A stretch of DNA of 7,064 nucleotides from Myxococcales bacterium. GTDB lineage: Bacteria > Myxococcota > Myxococcia > Myxococcales > Myxococcaceae. The notes beneath the pieces were generated by a model. It did no database searches. It was not told where the DNA came from and saw nothing but the letters and a program-made list of their open reading frames with translations. The DNA lies in assembly GCA_003153055.1 (NCBI GenBank), contig PMBV01000168.1, positions 14,131 to 21,194 on the forward strand, in the 5' to 3' direction. The number at the start of each line of letters is the position of its first letter. Within the stretch, counting starts at the first letter, position 1. Made by a program: the position numbers and the translations under genes. This document shows positions 1 to 7,064 of this stretch, one piece after another.

Positions 1-1071
1 ATCCGCACGCCCATGAACGGCGTCCTCGGCCTCACCGAGGTGATGCTGACCGAGCCGTTGCCTCCGCACCAGAGAGAGCGCCTCGAGCTCATTCGCCGCA
101 GTGGAGAAGTGCTGGTCTCGCTCATCAACGACCTGCTCGATCTCTCGCGCATCGACGCGGGCAAGATGCCCATCACCCCGGTCGACGCCGAGCTCGAGCG
201 GCTGCTGTCCGACGTGCACCAGCTCTTCGCCGCGGCCGCCGAAGAGAAGCACCTCTCGCTCGTGCTCGACGTCGACCCGTCGGTGCCCCGGGCGGTGCGG
301 GTCGACGCGCTCCGACTGCGCCAGGTGCTGTCGAACCTGGTGAGCAACGCGGTGAAGTTCACCGATCGAGGCACCGTGCGGCTGGCGGTGTCACGCGTGG
401 GAGCTCGCCTGCGCTTCGAGGTGCACGACTCGGGCATCGGCATCTCGCCCGAGCAGCTGGGCCGTCTGTTCCAGAGCTTCGAGCAGGTGGGCGATGCCTC
501 GACGTTCCGAGGCGGCAGCGGGCTGGGGTTGGCCCTCTCCAAGCACCTCGTCGGGCTGATGGGTGGCGTCCTCGAGGTCGAGTCGCGCCAGGGAGCCGGC
601 TCGCGGTTCTCCTTCGAGCTCGAGCTGCCCGAGGTCGTCCTCCACCAAACTCCCGCCGCGCCGCTCCCGAGGCCTCGCTCCGGGGGCAAGGTGCTGGTGG
701 TAGACGACAACGTCATCAACCTCAAGGTGGCCAGGAGCCTCGCCGAGAAGGCCGGTTACCAGGTCACCACGGCGACCAACGGGCTGGAGGCCATCGCCGC
801 GGTGGAGCGCGAGCCCTTCGACGTGGTGCTGATGGACTGCCACATGCCCGAGCTCGACGGCTTCGAAGCCACCCGCCGCATTCGCCGCCTCGGGGGCCCT
901 CGCGCCCAGGTGCGAATCCTCGCGCTGACCGCCTCCGCGTTGCCCGAAGACGTGGCGGCCTGCCTCGCCGCGGGCATGAATGGCTTCTTGGCCAAGCCCA
1001 TCTCGATGGCCCGACTGGTCGAGGCCCTCGAGGACGCACCGGCCCCGGGTCGGGCGCGGGTCGGCTCTTGA
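1..1071 (+). CDS. Hybrid sensor histidine kinase with C-terminal receiver domain (5' partial)
   Basis: This is the C-terminal part of a hybrid two-component kinase that autophosphorylates on His and passes phosphate to its own receiver Asp. The frame is open from base 1 and begins I-R-T-P, the tail of the H-E-I-R-T-P H-box, so the phospho-acceptor His lies two codons outside the window and any sensor or membrane segments are lost. Counting from the internal Met at base 13, the HATPase domain shows the N-box Asn112 (SNAVKFT), G1 box D139-S-G-I-G and G2 box G168-S-G-L-G. The receiver starts near residue 227, with acidic pair D231/D232, phospho-acceptor D275 (in MDCHMPELDG), T306 and K328. All key residues are present, so it should be active. 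The protein ends about 20 residues after the receiver Lys, leaving no room for an HPt domain; onward phosphotransfer would need a separate protein. The input signal cannot be told. Confidence 0.95.
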   Translation: MRTPMNGVLGLTEVMLTEPLPPHQRERLELIRRSGEVLVSLINDLLDLSRIDAGKMPITPVDAELERLLSDVHQLFAAAAEEKHLSLVLDVDPSVPRAVRVDALRLRQVLSNLVSNAVKFTDRGTVRLAVSRVGARLRFEVHDSGIGISPEQLGRLFQSFEQVGDASTFRGGSGLGLALSKHLVGLMGGVLEVESRQGAGSRFSFELELPEVVLHQTPAAPLPRPRSGGKVLVVDDNVINLKVARSLAEKAGYQVTTATNGLEAIAAVEREPFDVVLMDCHMPELDGFEATRRIRRLGGPRAQVRILALTASALPEDVAACLAAGMNGFLAKPISMARLVEALEDAPAPGRARVGS

Positions 1072-1139: not shown

Positions 1140-1703
1140 TTACCGAGGGTCGTCGCCCAGGAGCTCCGCGACTCGCACCTCGACCACCTCGAACGGTGGG
1201 GCGTTCACCACCTCGTGGCGCTCGGCGCTGAGCACGTTCAGGAACCCCTGGGGCTCGTGCCGGAAGACAGTCAAGGTTCCCCAGGTCGGATCGAGGAGCC
1301 AATAGGAGCCAACTCCCGCGCGGTGATAGAGGCGCAGCTTGCGCACCGTGTCGTTCGCTCGGTTCGATTCCGACAGTACCTCGCAGATCCAGTCGGGCAC
1401 CTGGGTGACCGGACGCACTCTGGGCAGGCTCGCCAGCTGGTCGCGCCGCCACCCAGAGATGTCAGGTCGGAAGCCGTCGTTCCCCAACTGGATATCGATC
1501 TCGGGCGCAATCCACCAGCCGCCCGGTGCGCCCCCGTGGCCCGCGGGCCGGTGGAATGGAGTCGAGAGCGCCCTGATGAGGCCCATCTGGGAGAAGCCGT
1601 GAGGAACATCGGGTGCGGCCTTCTCGACGAAGGAACCATCGATGAGCTCCAGCCGTCGATCTTCCGGCTCGACCAGCCACTCGGCGATCGTGTGCGCCCG
1701 CAT
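1140..1703 (-). CDS. Uma2 family endonuclease-fold protein (DUF820)
   Basis: This is a 187-residue protein of the Uma2/DUF820 family, which has a PD-(D/E)XK nuclease-like fold; the biological role of these proteins is largely unknown. Numbered from the ATG at 1703, it shows E19-L-I-D-G near the N-terminus, P80-D81-I-S, W105-I-C-E108-V-L-S, then D118 and K122 leading to Y134-W-L-L-D138-P, the usual order of conserved acidic and Lys residues. Length is typical and nothing is missing. I chose the ATG at 1703 because MRAHTIAEWLVEPEDRRLELIDG matches the usual family N-terminus. A GTG at 1751 would add 16 unconserved residues. Neither start has a convincing Shine-Dalgarno site. A GATAAA box (1719-1714 on the minus strand) sits close enough to 1703 to suggest a leaderless transcript, but its -35 is poor. 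It converges with the sensor kinase and diverges from the large nuclease-STAND gene. Uma2 genes occur in many copies in some bacteria, so a link to that neighbour is not assumed. Confidence 0.88.
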   Translation of the reverse strand: MRAHTIAEWLVEPEDRRLELIDGSFVEKAAPDVPHGFSQMGLIRALSTPFHRPAGHGGAPGGWWIAPEIDIQLGNDGFRPDISGWRRDQLASLPRVRPVTQVPDWICEVLSESNRANDTVRKLRLYHRAGVGSYWLLDPTWGTLTVFRHEPQGFLNVLSAERHEVVNAPPFEVVEVRVAELLGDDPR

Positions 1704-1813
1704 GACGGTGTTCTTTATCACACTCACCCACGCCCCATCGCCATGCAGCACCGGCGGGAGCGGCCTGGATCACAGCCAGCTGGGTGGGCTTTCGGGGCCG
1801 GTATTGTGGTCGG

Positions 1814-1913: not shown

Positions 1914-4900
1914 ATGGTCACGAAGCGTCGAGGATCCGCTCAGCGCAAGCAGACCTCCTTTCGGGGGGCTGGGGTGTCTCCGACGTTCAAGGACTTTTCG
2001 GGGGACGATTTCGCCCAGCTGGTGAAGGACCTCCTGTGGTCCGAGCGCTTCGAGGCTGGGCTTCGTCCCGAAGAGCTGGAGGCCTTCGACGCCGGGAACA
2101 AAGGAGACGGAGGGGTCGACGCACTGCTGCACAGGACGCCGCCGGCTCCGACGCAGCACCTGAGGGACGGACCTTGCGTCTTTCAGTTCAAGAGATCCTC
2201 TCCCAGTGAGGCGAAGTGGCGAAGCGAGCTCCAACGCCCAGCCCAGTGTCGTGCCCTCGACCTGTTGAGGGCTGGCGCGTCCTACACCCTCGTGGTGGGG
2301 GCCGACATCGAGCGGGAGAAGATCGAGGCGGGTCTGGCCAATGCCATCAAGCGGCTCGTCCCTCGGTGGACCGGACGGGCTGTCGTCTGGAACGCGGAGG
2401 AGCTCAAGAGGTGGTTGTGCTCGAACATGGCGACGTGGGGGCGCGTGACGAGGAGCGCCGCGCTGCTGGGGCTCAGCCCGTGGGAGCAGTGGAGCCGTGA
2501 GCCTCGGTTCGATGCCGCCGGCCTCCCATGGACCCCGGATGAGCGTCGCGCTGAAGCCCTGCGGGTCTTCGCTGAGGAGGCCCACAACCCCAGCGGGCGG
2601 CGAGTCTGGCGCTTCAAGGGACCGCCAGGCATCGGCAAGTCCCGCCTCGTCCTCGAGGCCACCAGGGACCTGCCAGGTGTCCATGTGGCCAAGCGGTACA
2701 GCCCGGAGCTCCTGGGTCTGGACAAGGTGTCCTCGGGCTGGCTCGTCGTCGACGAGTGCGACGACGATCAGCACACCGATCTCGTGCGACTCTTCGAGCG
2801 ATCGAAGGTGCGGCTCGTCACCATCGGGCGGGACACTGCGCGCAGCCCGCACTCGGACGAAGTCTGGCTGGGCGCGCTAGATGACGAGGCGTGCATGAAG
2901 CTGTTGCCGTCGGGCTTGCCCGTCGAGCTCCGGCAGCTGTTGGTGAAGCAAGCGGGTGGCTACCCCAAGCTCCTGCGTCTCCTCCGTCGCGCCGTCCAGA
3001 TGCGGGACGCCGACTCTCCGGCAGCGGCCGGGACGTGGAGTGAGCCGGAGCTGCGCAAGGCCCTCGAGGAGCTCCTCGGCGGCCAGCTCAAGGCGGACCG
3101 GAGGGCGCTCAAGGTGTGGGCGCTCCCATCGATAGCCAGCGAGTCGGAGGTCAAGACGGTCGCCCTGGCGCTGGGGATGCAAGCCATCGACGTCGGCGAG
3201 GCCCGCCAGCTCCTCGACGAGCAAGGCCTCCTCGGCCAAGTCACAGGCGGGACGGAACCCCTCTACTACATGACCCCGCAGCTGCTCGCCGAATGGCTCG
3301 CCTGGAGTTTGTGGGACGCCGACGTGGACAGCGTCCTCGGCGCCATCCGGAGCGGGTCTCCGGTCCTGCGGCACAACTGTGTTCGCCGGGTGGCCATGGG
3401 TGGGTCAGAGCTCCTGGCCATTCTCCGGCGAATCCCCGCGGGAGCGCTCGTCGAGATCATCGACGGCGACCCAATGGGTGCCGTGGCCGACGTCCTTGCG
3501 TCAGATGCTCCCGACGAGGCCTTCGACCTCGTTCGGAGGTTACTTCATGCCAGAGCGACCTCAAGTGAGCGGACCTCCGCGGTCCTAGTCCTGAAGAAGC
3601 TCGCCTGGTTCGAGTCGTCGTTTCCGAAGAGCGTCGCGACGCTCGCCGAGATGGATGGGGCTGCGACCGGACGGACCCTGGTCGACCTCTTCGGCTGCTT
3701 CCTCGGGACGACGCAGGCCCCCGGACCGACGCGGCTCGCGGCGCTCGACGAGCTTAGCCGAGCTTCGTCCACCGAGATCCGTAGGCTGGCCGTTCGCTGC
3801 GCGCGCGAGGCGTGCGACCTCGAGGGGGCTCGGATGACCACCGGACTGCCCCAGCCCATCGAACAGGCGTGGCGCCCAACCACCCCGGAAGAGGAGCGCA
3901 GCTACAAGGCGGGGGCGGTGGATGTCCTGTGTCGACTGTTGTCCGACGAAGAGGTTCGCGCCGATGCTTTCGAGGCGTGTGCGAAGGTCATCCGCCCGCT
4001 CTTCGCCCGAGGGCAGCTTGCCCTGCTGTCCCGCATCGTCGACGCCTGGCGGGCCTCCGGGCACCCGGTGGCTCCTCTCCGAAAAGCGCTCGACACCATC
4101 GAGCGCTTCGACCGGCCGCGCGTCCAGACGGAGCGGCTGGAGGAATTGCGGACCTTCTCCGAAGCCCGGCGCAGCCTCGAGCCCCAGGACCTCGGTGACC
4201 GAGTTCAGGCGTTCCTCGAAACCGAGACGAGCCAGCGCCATGGTGGCGAGGCGCTGGCCGCGGAGCTCGTGAGCGCTCCGGGCGCGGAGGACATCGTCCG
4301 CGAGGTGCTGGTAAGTGCGACCGGGCACCCCGGCGCCCACGACCTGGGGCGGCTCTGCGGCCGAGTGGATGCCTCTCACCGGCTGCTCCCTGCCATCGAC
4401 TCCGTCGCCTCGACGGCCAGGTCGATCGGGTTCGCGAGCGGCTACTGCGCGGAGCTCCCCTTGGCCGTCACCGACGCCAGTCTCCGCGGCTGGGCGGCCC
4501 GGAGCGAGGCGGCCAGCTTCGTCTTCCAGATGCTCCAGCACCTCGACGTCACCCCGGCTCGGTCTGGGCTCATGCTCGAGCTGGTGGCGCGAGGGGCCAT
4601 TCCCCCCGATGATCTTCGACAGCTCTGGTACGCCCGATGGATGGTCCGTCAGGACGCCGCCTTCTCGAGCGCGCTCCTCGGACTCGTTCGTGGCTCGACC
4701 AGGTTTCTCCTCGCGCACCAGTGGGCCCAGGGCCAACCTCGACCGCCGGATCGCTCGAACCTGCTCCTCGGCGCCTGGTACGAAATGGAGGTGGAGGGCC
4801 TGGACGACGATCTCGTTGCGCACTTCTGGCGCGAGGAAGCACCTAACGCCGTCGCTGCTGGTGTCCTCGCTGCGCTCGAGACGGCCCTGCGCCTGGCCTC

Positions 4901-5450
4901 CGAAGACGCGCGCCGGGCGTCGCGCTGGCCAGAGGCGTTGGCCGAGTGCTTCCAGCTTCTGCGGGTGCGAGGGCCGACCGACGTCGTTCTTGGGCGAATC
5001 CTCGACGCTCTGTGCGCCGATGAGCACCTGGCGTCCTGGCTCCGCGCGCGGCGGTTCCTCGGCGACCTCAGCGACACCGAGACGACCGCCGTCCTCGACT
5101 GGGCCCGTGAGCACCCCAAGGCTGCCGCGGTCGCCGCTTCGTTGTCGTCGGGGATCGATCGCCTGGCAGTCGGTCTCGTGGAAGCATACCCGACGGATTC
5201 AGCCCTCCAGCGAACACTCCGCGAAGCGGTGTTCCCGATCGAGGTCTTCATGGCGGGTGAGGAGTCGGCTCGCCTCCTCGGCCGCCAAGCCGAGCTCGAG
5301 GTACTCGCTCGCTCCTCGAAGACTCCTGCTTCCCGGCGCTGGTTCGCGAGGCTCGCCGATGAGGTCGGGCGTCGAGCCCTTCAGGTCCAGCAGGCAGAGG
5401 ACGCCTTCCGCCGAGGTGCACTCCCGGTTCCCTTCGTCGCCTCGCCATAG
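1914..5450 (+). CDS. Mrr-like nuclease / STAND NTPase / helical-repeat fusion, Avs-like defence candidate
   Basis: This is a single 1178-residue protein. Residues ~25-180 form a restriction-endonuclease-like domain: helix DDFAQLVKDLL, G64-D-G-G-V-D69, then F-Q91-F-K93 (QxK variant of PD-(D/E)XK), a strand YTLVV and VVWNAEELKRWL. Residues ~205-390 are a P-loop NTPase with Walker A G236-PPGIGK-S243, Walker B WLVVD280-E281, a following strand ending I-G-R306, and G349-Y-P-K-L resembling the GxP motif of STAND/NB-ARC ATPases. Residues ~395-465 look like a winged helix (LLDEQGLL...YMTPQLLAEWLA). Residues ~470-1178 are Leu/Ala/Arg-rich helical repeats, HEAT-like at ~605-637, with W653-RPTTPEEE after them. 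No membrane segment or signal peptide is seen. Known nuclease-STAND proteins (Avs family) sense phage proteins through the C-terminal repeats, oligomerise and activate the nuclease; this role is inferred here. ATG 1914 is the first possible start after an in-frame stop at 1860; GTG 1974 (Val21) is an alternative. The helix-1 Glu usual in Mrr-like domains is not obvious. The nuclease-STAND architecture is firm; the defence role is likely but unproven. Confidence 0.85.
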   Translation: MVTKRRGSAQRKQTSFRGAGVSPTFKDFSGDDFAQLVKDLLWSERFEAGLRPEELEAFDAGNKGDGGVDALLHRTPPAPTQHLRDGPCVFQFKRSSPSEAKWRSELQRPAQCRALDLLRAGASYTLVVGADIEREKIEAGLANAIKRLVPRWTGRAVVWNAEELKRWLCSNMATWGRVTRSAALLGLSPWEQWSREPRFDAAGLPWTPDERRAEALRVFAEEAHNPSGRRVWRFKGPPGIGKSRLVLEATRDLPGVHVAKRYSPELLGLDKVSSGWLVVDECDDDQHTDLVRLFERSKVRLVTIGRDTARSPHSDEVWLGALDDEACMKLLPSGLPVELRQLLVKQAGGYPKLLRLLRRAVQMRDADSPAAAGTWSEPELRKALEELLGGQLKADRRALKVWALPSIASESEVKTVALALGMQAIDVGEARQLLDEQGLLGQVTGGTEPLYYMTPQLLAEWLAWSLWDADVDSVLGAIRSGSPVLRHNCVRRVAMGGSELLAILRRIPAGALVEIIDGDPMGAVADVLASDAPDEAFDLVRRLLHARATSSERTSAVLVLKKLAWFESSFPKSVATLAEMDGAATGRTLVDLFGCFLGTTQAPGPTRLAALDELSRASSTEIRRLAVRCAREACDLEGARMTTGLPQPIEQAWRPTTPEEERSYKAGAVDVLCRLLSDEEVRADAFEACAKVIRPLFARGQLALLSRIVDAWRASGHPVAPLRKALDTIERFDRPRVQTERLEELRTFSEARRSLEPQDLGDRVQAFLETETSQRHGGEALAAELVSAPGAEDIVREVLVSATGHPGAHDLGRLCGRVDASHRLLPAIDSVASTARSIGFASGYCAELPLAVTDASLRGWAARSEAASFVFQMLQHLDVTPARSGLMLELVARGAIPPDDLRQLWYARWMVRQDAAFSSALLGLVRGSTRFLLAHQWAQGQPRPPDRSNLLLGAWYEMEVEGLDDDLVAHFWREEAPNAVAAGVLAALETALRLASEDARRASRWPEALAECFQLLRVRGPTDVVLGRILDALCADEHLASWLRARRFLGDLSDTETTAVLDWAREHPKAAAVAASLSSGIDRLAVGLVEAYPTDSALQRTLREAVFPIEVFMAGEESARLLGRQAELEVLARSSKTPASRRWFARLADEVGRRALQVQQAEDAFRRGALPVPFVASP

Positions 5451-5471
5451 CGTCTGGCCTCGCCGTAGGGG

Positions 5472-5510
5472 GGACGATCGTCCGTGCCGAGGCGGCCAGC
5501 TCCTCGGCGC
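5472..5510 (+). terminator. Palindrome plus stem-loop after the nuclease-STAND gene
   Basis: Beginning 22 nt after the stop codon is a perfect 12-bp palindrome, GGACGATCGTCC (5472-5483). Directly abutting it is a 9-bp stem (GTGCCGAGG 5484-5492 with CCTCGGCGC 5502-5510, one G-U pair) with a 9-nt loop. No U-tract follows, so this is terminator-like by position and stability only. If it stops transcription, the downstream 122-aa gene would need its own promoter; the palindrome could also be a protein-binding site for that promoter. Confidence 0.4.
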
Positions 5511-5596
5511 CAACTGGCACGCCCGGGTAGCAAGTTGGTTCCCGGGAAGTCACATCAACCCGAGACGCGAAGGCCCAGAGGCGCCAGACTCACCCC

Positions 5597-5965
5597 ATGA
5601 CCCGAAAGCCCTGGAGCATGTGGGTGAAGTGGAACGAAAGCATGGATCGCACGCTGGTCGACGCGGAGCACCTCGCGGCCGGCGACGAGACGATCGCCGA
5701 AGCCCGCGAGCGCGCGGCGAAGGCGGGCACCGCGAGCATCCTCTCCGTACTCACGCTGGCCGACCACAAGATGCTCGGGCGCATCTGGGTGCTCTCACCC
5801 GCCGAGCTGCATGAGCACTTCGGTTCGAAGACGCCGGCGCGGAAGGTCATCGAGGGCGGGCAGGAGACCTTCATCGCCCGCCTCGAAAAAGGCCAGGCCG
5901 TCGCGGTCACTGCCTTCCTCCGCGGCCAAGCGATCATGGTGCTCTTCGCGGGACAGCCAGACTGA
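5597..5965 (+). CDS. Hypothetical protein, 122 residues, no recognised domain
   Basis: I do not recognise this protein. Codon third positions are overwhelmingly G or C on this strand, supporting a real gene over the antisense frame. The ATG at 5597 is the only start between it and the in-frame stop at 5528-5530. No Shine-Dalgarno site precedes it (the bases before it are CACCCC). The sequence is soluble and mixed alpha/beta: a Trp-rich start (KPWSMWVKWNESMD), a charged helix rich in Ala/Glu/Arg (about residues 30-43), then a hydrophobic strand or helix SILSVLTL. The second half has ELHEHFG and a C-terminal hydrophobic pair of strands, AVAVTAF and AIMVLFAG. There is no signal peptide, membrane helix, Cys cluster or catalytic motif. 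It lies 146 bp downstream of the nuclease-STAND gene on the same strand and converges with the kinase-like gene. A partner or regulator role is possible but unsupported. Confidence 0.75.
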   Translation: MTRKPWSMWVKWNESMDRTLVDAEHLAAGDETIAEARERAAKAGTASILSVLTLADHKMLGRIWVLSPAELHEHFGSKTPARKVIEGGQETFIARLEKGQAVAVTAFLRGQAIMVLFAGQPD

Positions 5966-6022
5966 GGCACCGCCCTCGACCCGCGAGTGCCGGGCGGCTC
6001 CCCTGCGTGGGGGTCTCCAGCG

Positions 6023-6060
6023 CTGTCATCACTGTTGACGCGTCTGTCATCAGTGATGAC
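6023..6060. promoter_or_regulatory. Repeated GTCATCA half-sites, operator-like or terminator-like element
   Basis: GTCATCA occurs at 6025-6031 and 6046-6052, exactly 21 bp apart (two helical turns), within the near-identical 12-mers CTGTCATCACTG and CTGTCATCAGTG. Its inverse, TGATGAC, follows at 6054-6060, so 6046-6060 is a perfect 15-bp palindrome, GTCATCAGTGATGAC. The outer copies also form a 10-bp inverted repeat (6025-6034 with 6051-6060). A TTGACG hexamer lies between them at 6035-6040, but no good -10 follows. Tandem half-sites in helical phase suggest cooperative binding by a dimeric regulator. Because it lies between two gene ends, a hairpin terminator without a U-tract is the alternative. 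Confidence 0.5.
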
Positions 6061-6107
6061 GGCTCCAGAGACCTCGCCCCCTCGAGGGCGCCCGCCTCCT
6101 GGCTGAC

Positions 6108-7064
6108 TCAGTGGGCCAGCTCACTCCACAAGATGAGGTCGCCCTTGCCGAGGTACGTCTTGTCGCCGAAGGCGGCGTAGAAGTCCTCGAAGACGGCCTC
6201 GAAATCGGGGTACCGGCTCTCGCGTCGATCCTGCGTCATCTTGTCGAAGATGGGGTCGAGCTTGGGTGGGCACTCTGGGTTGATCTCGCTGGGCAGCGGG
6301 CTCCGGCGCCCGGGAATCTGCCCGGTCAGCATCTCGTACAAGAGAATGCCCAGGGCGTAGACGTCGCTGGCCGGCCCGGTGTCCTTGCCGCGGGCGAGGA
6401 CCTCGGGGCTCATGTACCCCATGCCTCCGGTGCCCACGAAGACCTGGGGCATGCCCTTGGACTGATCGACCTCGATGACCCTCGAGAGCCCGAAGTCGGC
6501 CAGCTTCGCGTTGCCCCAGGCGTCGAACAGCACGTTCTCGGGCTTGATGTTGTGGTGCGTGAGGCCCTGCTGGTGGGCCGCCCTCAACGCGTACGCCAGC
6601 TGGAGGAAATAGCGCATCGAGAGGGGCACCGGCACGCCCTTGCCCCCCGAGGAGTCGAGCTTCTCCCGGAGGCTCCCTCGGCACAGCTCCATCACGTAAT
6701 AGGGCCGGGCGACGTCGGTGTTTTGATCGAGGATCTGCACCACCCCTGGGTGACGAACCTGGGCCTGGGCGCACAGCTCTCTCTTGAGCCGCTTGATGAC
6801 CTCGCCCCGCTGGAGGAACGAGAAGTAGCCGAAGATGTCCTTGAGCTCCTTCAGGCTCACGTCCAACCCCAGGGCGTTGTGCCGCCCCTTGAACACCGTG
6901 CCCAGAGGGCCGGTCCCCAGTTGATCGCCCTTCTGGTACCGCGCGTCACCCTCAGTGCTGCTCGGAGCTCCCTTGGCCACGCTGGCCTGCGAAGGCGAGC
7001 TCACCATCGCGGCCGTCAGCGGCAGTGGCACCGGAGGCGGGGGCGGCGGCGGCGGCGGACGTGG
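6108..7064 (-). CDS. Eukaryotic-like Ser/Thr kinase-fold protein, probable pseudokinase (5' partial)
   Basis: This is a Hanks-type kinase-fold protein, numbered from the GTG at 7031. The domain spans about residues 32-285: glycine loop G39-TGPLG, VAIK-equivalent V58-S-L-K61, helix-C Glu85 (candidate), DFG D179-F-G, S208-P-E (APE equivalent), S222-D-V-Y-A-L-G and R273 in subdomain XI. The catalytic loop reads H159-H-N161-I-K-P-E-N166, where HRD would have Asp; the codon is AAC where GAC is expected. ATP and metal residues are retained, so ATP binding is plausible, but phosphotransfer should be weak or absent. About 18 residues follow the domain; no PASTA, WD40, TPR or membrane segment is present in the window. 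Neither the GTG at 7031 nor the ATG at 7007 has a Shine-Dalgarno site, and the frame stays open to the edge through P-R and nine prolines. The true start is therefore probably outside, and the polyproline may be a linker to another domain. Confidence 0.88.
   Translation of the reverse strand, partial: PRPPPPPPPPPVPLPLTAAMVSSPSQASVAKGAPSSTEGDARYQKGDQLGTGPLGTVFKGRHNALGLDVSLKELKDIFGYFSFLQRGEVIKRLKRELCAQAQVRHPGVVQILDQNTDVARPYYVMELCRGSLREKLDSSGGKGVPVPLSMRYFLQLAYALRAAHQQGLTHHNIKPENVLFDAWGNAKLADFGLSRVIEVDQSKGMPQVFVGTGGMGYMSPEVLARGKDTGPASDVYALGILLYEMLTGQIPGRRSPLPSEINPECPPKLDPIFDKMTQDRRESRYPDFEAVFEDFYAAFGDKTYLGKGDLILWSELAH
7032..7058 (-). repeat. Proline-codon run (CCN)9 in the kinase-like gene
   Basis: Nine consecutive proline codons (mostly CCG, with one CCC and one CCT) in frame with the kinase-fold protein, read on the minus strand. 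It is a low-complexity tract prone to length change by slippage, and is probably an interdomain linker or a disordered N-terminal region. Confidence 0.75.

Follow-up and report, generated by a model that had tools for sequence, protein, structure and literature searches.

We analysed a 7,064-nucleotide (nt) stretch of DNA from a Myxococcales bacterium (contig PMBV01000168.1, positions 14,131 to 21,194; hereafter, the window) and conclude that its gene at 1914-5450 (+) probably encodes a stand-alone, Avs- and NLR-like anti-invader sensor of the PD-lambda-4 subunit A family, which would act in defence by cutting DNA. Computation directly yields the three-part architecture of the protein (nuclease, STAND NTPase and helical sensor), the conservation of its nuclease and NTPase residues and its homology to subunit A of PD-lambda-4, an Escherichia coli anti-phage system.

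The open reading frame (ORF) starts with ATG and encodes 1178 amino acids (aa) without interruption. The original prediction, made from the letters of the sequence, had described a single chain with nuclease, Walker A, Walker B and GxP motifs, and all of these are where it had placed them. G64-D65-G66-G67-V68-D69 and Q91-F92-K93 supply the conserved acidic, acidic, Q/E-x-K motif of the PD-(D/E)XK nuclease superfamily, and are followed by GPPGIGKS (236-243), WLVVDE (276-281) and GYPKLL (349-354). Conservation was scored in an alignment of 127 rows, comprising 66 database proteins (the window protein included) and 61 locus ORFs, some of which are fragments or near-duplicates. D65 and D69 are each kept in 125 of the 127 rows and Q91 and K93 in 124 each, while the counts for the NTPase residues are given in Table 1. 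Within residues 26-180, six of 155 columns are at least 95% identical, and these are exactly D65, G66, G67, D69, Q91 and K93; six of 291 columns reach that level in residues 190-480, and one of 686 does in residues 481-1166. Since 55 rows were retrieved with a pattern containing GK[ST]RL, their Walker A is conserved by selection; G236, G241 and K242 are also invariant in the 66 protein-database rows, which were not selected on Walker A. Judged from these counts, motif conservation exceeds chance, and the nuclease motif is conserved above the rest of its domain.

Direct database searches with the protein are nearly blank, and a reading by motifs could reach only as far as Avs. No PADLOC or NCBIfam family matches at E up to 1; NCBIfam includes the Avs4 model NF041815, and PADLOC contains Avs models. 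A sequence search of the PDB returned no matches, and a profile of the nuclease domain reached an unconvincing E of 0.024 at best against PDB sequences. Pfam gives two sub-threshold matches, Mrr_cat over residues 26-96 (E 0.058; 13.9 bits, with the cut-off at 21) and Arm (E 0.19).

AlphaFold2, Foldseek and fold look-ups agree on the effector-STAND-repeat order that had been proposed. The AlphaFold2 model (mean predicted local distance difference test score 79.8, predicted template modelling score 0.60) has an alpha/beta domain at the N-terminus, an alpha/beta NTPase in the middle and then helices with a beta hairpin (440-453), which is compatible with a winged helix, as originally suggested. 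The C-terminal half is helical through residue 1166, with about 690 residues of helical repeats after the STAND module. The top full-length Foldseek match is Avs3 bound to terminase (E 2.9e-8), followed by SAMD9. Residues 189-505 match STAND/NLR folds, with CED-4 and plant NLRs among the best structural matches, which bears out the STAND module expected at residues 200-470. The nuclease-domain fold look-up points to PD-(D/E)XK nucleases in general.

The link to defence comes from the relatives of the protein. A single-sequence search returned 10 proteins, the window protein included: P0002 (1291 aa, 30% identical to the window protein over 73%), P0004 (815 aa) and seven of about 1340-1360 aa for which an MqsA-like helix-turn-helix (HTH) domain is listed. 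Six of the seven that were scanned (P0003, P0004 and P0006-P0009) match the PADLOC model PD-Lambda-4_A with E from 5e-48 to 4e-78; P0002 is the exception, and its C terminus matches AbiEi. A profile search enlarged the set to 66 proteins, and all seven further proteins scanned match the model (E 4e-40 to 1e-8), giving 13 of 14 scanned relatives (E 1e-8 to 4e-78); a third protein search added one more (P0067). The window protein itself does not match this model (PDLC03991) at E up to 1. A one-genome-per-species scan yielded 55 loci in Actinomycetota, Pseudomonadota, Poribacteria, Acidobacteriota, Chloroflexota, Bacteroidota, Bacillota, Archaea and others. The nearest relative with a named source, L001, is encoded in a Myxococcales metagenome-assembled genome (MAG; 1311 aa, 31% identity).

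The E. coli PD-lambda-4 genes were found via an Enterobacter relative; DNA matching it at 60-80% identity is present in 175 of 5426 E. coli genomes, in none over 80% of its length. In E. coli WAT, the 1283-aa A protein (locus L067, 9001-12852) scores 2531 bits against PDLC03991. BLASTP aligns the window protein to it over 862 positions (E 2e-9), and hhalign, comparing the profile of the window clade (window, P0002, L001) with that of the clade of the E. coli, Enterobacter and Vibrio proteins, aligns 864 columns (27-910 of the first profile with 13-990 of the second) at a probability of 99.75 and E 3.2e-27, the printed alignment running to window residue 730. In a FastTree tree of 118 rows, the members of the window clade group together at full local support and separately from the E. 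coli, Enterobacter and Vibrio proteins; the window protein is among the long end branches (1.33), and its deeper placement is unsure for that reason. On sequence evidence, then, the window protein belongs to the PD-lambda-4 subunit A family as a distant relative. The original prediction of a defence protein unmatched to any named Avs type is thereby upheld for the defence link, which runs through homology to PD-lambda-4 A, and revised for its placement, the protein having a home in this family. According to the text of the discovery paper, each of the PD systems reduced plaquing of the phage used for its selection (PMC9519451). That text does not spell PD-lambda-4, and equating the E. coli genes with the published system therefore relies on PADLOC's names; we attribute PD-lambda-4 to Vassallo et al. 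2022 through PADLOC naming and a review table that names the system and cites its discovery paper (PMC10952713). The same table files it under 'P-loop NTPase', not under PD(D/E)XK.

In the mechanism that we infer, comprising ligand, nucleotide cycle, oligomerisation, DNA substrate and defence by the window gene, the helical C-terminal half would keep the STAND switch closed at rest. A molecule produced by the invader, in all likelihood a phage protein, would bind the repeats, upon which the NTPase would swap its nucleotide, open and oligomerise. The oligomer would unite the N-terminal PD-(D/E)xK domains, leading to cutting of the phage's DNA, or of the phage's and the host's, and ending either the infection or the cell. 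This sensor reading is supported by homology to a defence-selected system and by nuclease-motif conservation; by the nuclease-like fold, the NLR/CED-4-like fold and the Avs3 match; and by accessory behaviour, i.e. rarity, plasmid carriage and a non-syntenic site (see below).

The best-supported alternative is direct sensing of foreign DNA. Here the protein would be a type IV-restriction-like enzyme in which the repeats or the nuclease domain sense foreign (e.g. modified) DNA, and the STAND module does no more than power or gate cutting. It can draw on the sub-threshold Mrr_cat match, on a D-GG-x-D..QxK motif that we take to be Mrr-like, and on the structural matches of the nuclease domain, among which are MspJI and AspBHI (described in its title as modification-dependent). 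The Mrr likeness, which the original prediction proposed to check, stays at the level of motifs, with Mrr_cat short of its cut-off and a fold look-up that gives PD-(D/E)XK nucleases in general. Against a restriction-like enzyme, a long helical solenoid of low conservation, of the kind found in protein sensors, makes up most of the protein, and the NTPase is NLR-like. We consider such an enzyme rather unlikely.

It could also be argued that the sensor is half of a system, requiring a second protein that is encoded elsewhere or whose role has passed to an unrelated one, for example the product of the 122-aa gene that lies co-oriented, 146 nt downstream. In E. coli WAT, gene B begins 45 nt after A (12898-13644 and 13655-13810 of L067). 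By tblastn and phmmer, however, B is absent from the window and, among 68 loci, present only in two E. coli ones (three other hits have E 0.09 to 0.8); it is also missing from the Enterobacter and Vibrio plasmid loci, which the tree places nearest to E. coli A. The B model PDLC03992 has no match in 47 genomes of relatives, a set with many draft MAGs (the scan drew on 48 of the 55 loci, with seven left out and the genome of L031 not included; where two loci have a genome or record in common, it was counted once). The 122-aa gene was rejected as a candidate B for lack of similarity (best E 0.56); it has no family matches in Pfam or PADLOC and a chance-level one in NCBIfam. At 48-64% identity it is found in 14 of 195 Myxococcota genomes, 13 of which have no sensor match, and in all three enlarged loci it lies apart from kinase and sensor, with a histidine kinase paralogue about 3.5 kb off in one. 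A dependence on a missing half is thus quite unlikely. Because gene B was not found in the window or the 47 genomes, we rejected the label of a two-gene PD-lambda-4 for the window: by its sequence relationships the gene is an A-family member, not a complete PD-lambda-4 system. As for B itself, it is present as two ORFs in E. coli WAT and KSC64 and modelled by PDLC03992 as one, of 303 positions. An E. coli control genome matches PD-Lambda-4_B and not A, and a B homologue without A may therefore exist.

Antitoxin domains are fused to the sensor at either end in other family members. The two closest relatives, L001 and P0002, carry a C-terminal AbiEi domain: in P0002 it occupies residues 1126-1290 (PADLOC AbiEi, E 1.7e-52), in the L001 genome AbiEi_4 exceeds its Pfam cut-off at the C terminus of the fusion (gene 2015-5950), and the two regions are 51% identical over 208 residues. 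The next ORF of L001 (5947-6366), which overlaps the fusion stop by 4 nt and runs off the contig, matches AbiEii at 31.5 bits against a Pfam cut-off of 22.5. At 1983-2013, a perfect inverted repeat of 13 nt, its arms separated by 5 nt, ends 1 nt before the fusion start; such a repeat was seen in none of 2000 shuffles and none of 59 other family loci. AbiE is a type IV toxin-antitoxin system in which AbiEi represses its own operon via inverted repeats (PMC3985639). Queried with the relatives' AbiEi and AbiEii, the window gave no tblastn matches at E up to 0.01, and the window protein ends like that of the Myxococcota genome G200, short of any AbiEi domain.

At the opposite end, 19 loci have an N-terminal extension of at least 80 residues, of which 15 show a crude MqsA-HTH-like pattern; Pfam confirmed the HTH in all five scanned sister proteins with the extension (P0003, P0006-P0009). 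AACCT-N3-AGGTT, our guess at the MqsA consensus, was not found as such upstream of HTH members, and the near-matches showed ACCA-N3-TGGT. Searched from 150 nt before to 60 nt after the chosen start, with fragments L014, L033 and L052 left out, this palindrome is present in 13 of the 19 extended loci (L012, L013, L015, L016, L020-L022, L026-L029, L041 and L054), in 0 of 39 without the extension and in 67 of 3800 random stretches; the count is optimistic because the pattern was chosen from part of the same loci, some of them close kin, and the fairer figure is the contrast with the HTH-less loci. Pairs of sites spaced 28-29 nt, of which one is exact and the other mismatched at no more than one position, occur in five of the 19 extended loci compared with 53 of 9500 stretches. 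The window has no ACCA-N3-TGGT site. The extended members that carry the palindrome probably repress themselves through these operator-like sites at their own start. By title or abstract opening, the papers listed in our literature searches offered nothing on point about AbiEi or other antitoxins fused to STAND or Avs proteins.

The sensor behaves as an accessory gene. The window protein matches three of 195 Myxococcota genomes (up to three candidates were scored per genome): that of L001, G200, in which the sensor lies in two pieces on two contigs (L091 and L093; 38% and 29% identity), and, weakly and partially, G060 (E 1.6e-5). As a query it retrieves one plasmid record, from Haloarcula; a relative as query retrieves 64, and among the 60 listed, 21 are covered by its HTH part alone and are mostly annotated as MqsA antitoxins. 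Plasmid carriage of relatives extends over Proteobacteria, Cyanobacteria and Haloarchaea. On the Haloarcula plasmid (L066), the family is present as two overlapping genes (5959-6999 and 6992-9736), nuclease plus Walker A and then the remainder, with a gene annotated as SbcC/MukB-like upstream of them. A viral contig scan found no relatives, and the one match in phage records is due to the HTH part of a relative.

Immediate neighbourhoods were compared with controls using 86 ORFs (at least 130 aa, within 6 kb of 12 loci) and 86 of the 140 ORFs on 21 control stretches in the 12 genomes concerned; the 12 loci are those, of 29 tried, whose genomes also yielded control stretches, and of the control ORFs four were dropped for running off an end and the remainder trimmed to 86. 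At 1e-10, PADLOC reports 109 families near the relatives, the first 25 including mad3 (3), type III restriction enzyme (2), type II methyltransferase (2) and AriA (2), and 86 in the control, the first 25 including single matches to methyltransferase, BrxH, DrmD and RtcR-type models. Pfam finds ResIII (3), Phage_integrase (2) and N6_N4_Mtase (2), besides transporters and metabolism (near set only). Defence neighbours at these 12 loci thus show no clear excess over control, which we weigh neither way. Against confinement to conserved core-genome contexts without defence neighbours, which the original prediction had said would count against it, the relatives are patchy and often plasmid- or island-borne; an enrichment of defence neighbours did not emerge.

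The myxobacterial origin that had been proposed is supported by the flanking Ser/Thr kinase, 76-84% identical in the 16 best-matching Myxococcota genomes, as well as by the source of L001. Both the sensor gene and the 122-aa gene are missing from all seven enlarged kinase loci, whose DNA similarity to the window ends at 6101-6117, just past the kinase gene. For these reasons the sensor gene is placed in a variable, non-syntenic stretch, as expected of an accessory gene, insertion being indistinguishable from rearrangement. Two of the window neighbours are signalling genes (Table 1), and NTP-dependent conflict systems are described as concentrated in multicellular prokaryotes, some in myxobacteria (PMC7159879), both of which would suit a social or developmental STAND regulator (of cell death, kin or gene transfer agent control) that is not primarily anti-phage. 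Such a role is very unlikely, given a family that spans Bacteria and Archaea, is carried on plasmids and matches so few Myxococcota genomes. That the gene is a decayed copy without activity, as its strong divergence might hint, is most improbable, with 1178 codons open and the motif residues retained.

Table 1. Features of the window, with the evidence for each
Feature	Position (nt)	Strand	Basis or remark
PD-lambda-4 A-like protein: nuclease - STAND NTPase - helical sensor	1914..5450	+	1178 aa
N-terminal PD-(D/E)xK-like nuclease domain	1989..2453	+	about residues 26-180
E44, possible catalytic acid	2043..2045	+	E in 107/127 rows
D65-G-G-x-D69, predicted catalytic	2106..2120	+	alignment conservation
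Q91-x-K93, predicted catalytic	2184..2192	+	alignment conservation
STAND NTPase, winged-helix-like end	2478..3428	+	residues 189-505
Walker A GPPGIGKS	2619..2642	+	residues 236-243; G236, G241, K242 in 127/127, some rows pre-selected for it
Walker B WLVVDE	2739..2756	+	residues 276-281; D280 in 114/127 (9 E, 4 N)
GxP motif G349-Y-P351	2958..2966	+	G349 in 122/127, P351 in 91/127
All-helical (HEAT/ARM-like) C-terminal sensor	3354..5411	+	residues 481-1166
Histidine kinase-response regulator	1-1071		Pfam
Uma2-family protein, not counted in the system	1140..1751	-	Pfam Uma2 E 7.7e-23; PADLOC candidate PDC-S03 E 1e-18
122-aa protein, distinct from PD-lambda-4 B and not counted in the system	5597..5965	+	Pfam/PADLOC/NCBIfam, comparison with B
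Conserved Ser/Thr kinase	6108..7031	-	DNA similarity to relatives' kinase loci stops just past the gene

A broader, and tentative, picture goes beyond the stand-alone anti-invader sensor that we favour for the window; we regard it as possible rather than probable. In E. coli, PD-lambda-4 A may represent the rare form with a partner in an ancient and mostly partner-free group of NLR-like DNA-cutting sensors of Bacteria and Archaea that repeatedly captured antitoxins as built-in autorepressors, with an N-terminal MqsA-type HTH in one large clade and a C-terminal AbiEi in the window's clade. The AbiEi-form sensor would then be the antitoxin of the toxin behind it, and the window protein would represent the bare form. 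If so, an invader that hits or hijacks an AbiEi-form sensor could release a second, back-up effector. While the PD-lambda-4 family was already named, the Avs-like reading of its A subunit, the B-less majority and the antitoxin fusions are new here; in the open-access papers found to name the system, a review and a genome survey, and apart from the discovery figures and supplements, we found neither a mechanism nor a nuclease assigned to A. The reading of subunit A as nuclease, STAND switch and sensor gives a directly testable mechanism for PD-lambda-4. Furthermore, gene B is unlinked to most of the family found here, the range of which now extends to Archaea and Myxococcota, and the antitoxin fusions suggest how cells might restrain a dangerous NLR-like nuclease.

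With Avs (AVAST) proteins, the window protein shares an effector, a STAND module and a repeat sensor in one chain, but it lacks a match to the curated Avs models. Avs3 is its best full-length Foldseek match, ahead of SAMD9; for Avs5, a likeness to a 'Sterile alpha motif domain' protein is mentioned in the paper on that protein (PMC12931631). Avs4 is longer (1579 model positions against 1178 aa), and filing the protein as an unplaced Avs4 was rejected because no NCBIfam or PADLOC model matches and hhalign of the window-clade profile against an Avs4 C-terminal fragment gives E 0.51; the fragment covers model positions 765-1579, and for the N-terminal part the NCBIfam and PADLOC models are what bears on the question. 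From CED-4, Apaf-1 and the plant NLRs, the window protein differs in effector and sensor. The components of AbiE are found around the window protein's kin, with AbiEi fused C-terminally in the two closest relatives and an AbiEii-like gene behind one of them, but neither domain is found in the window. The closest known counterpart is PD-lambda-4 A of E. coli WAT, which aligns with the window protein across nuclease, STAND module and sensor and has identical DGGxD..QxK and Walker residues; the window differs in having no B gene, in the 21% identity of its protein to A and in its separate, long-branched clade.

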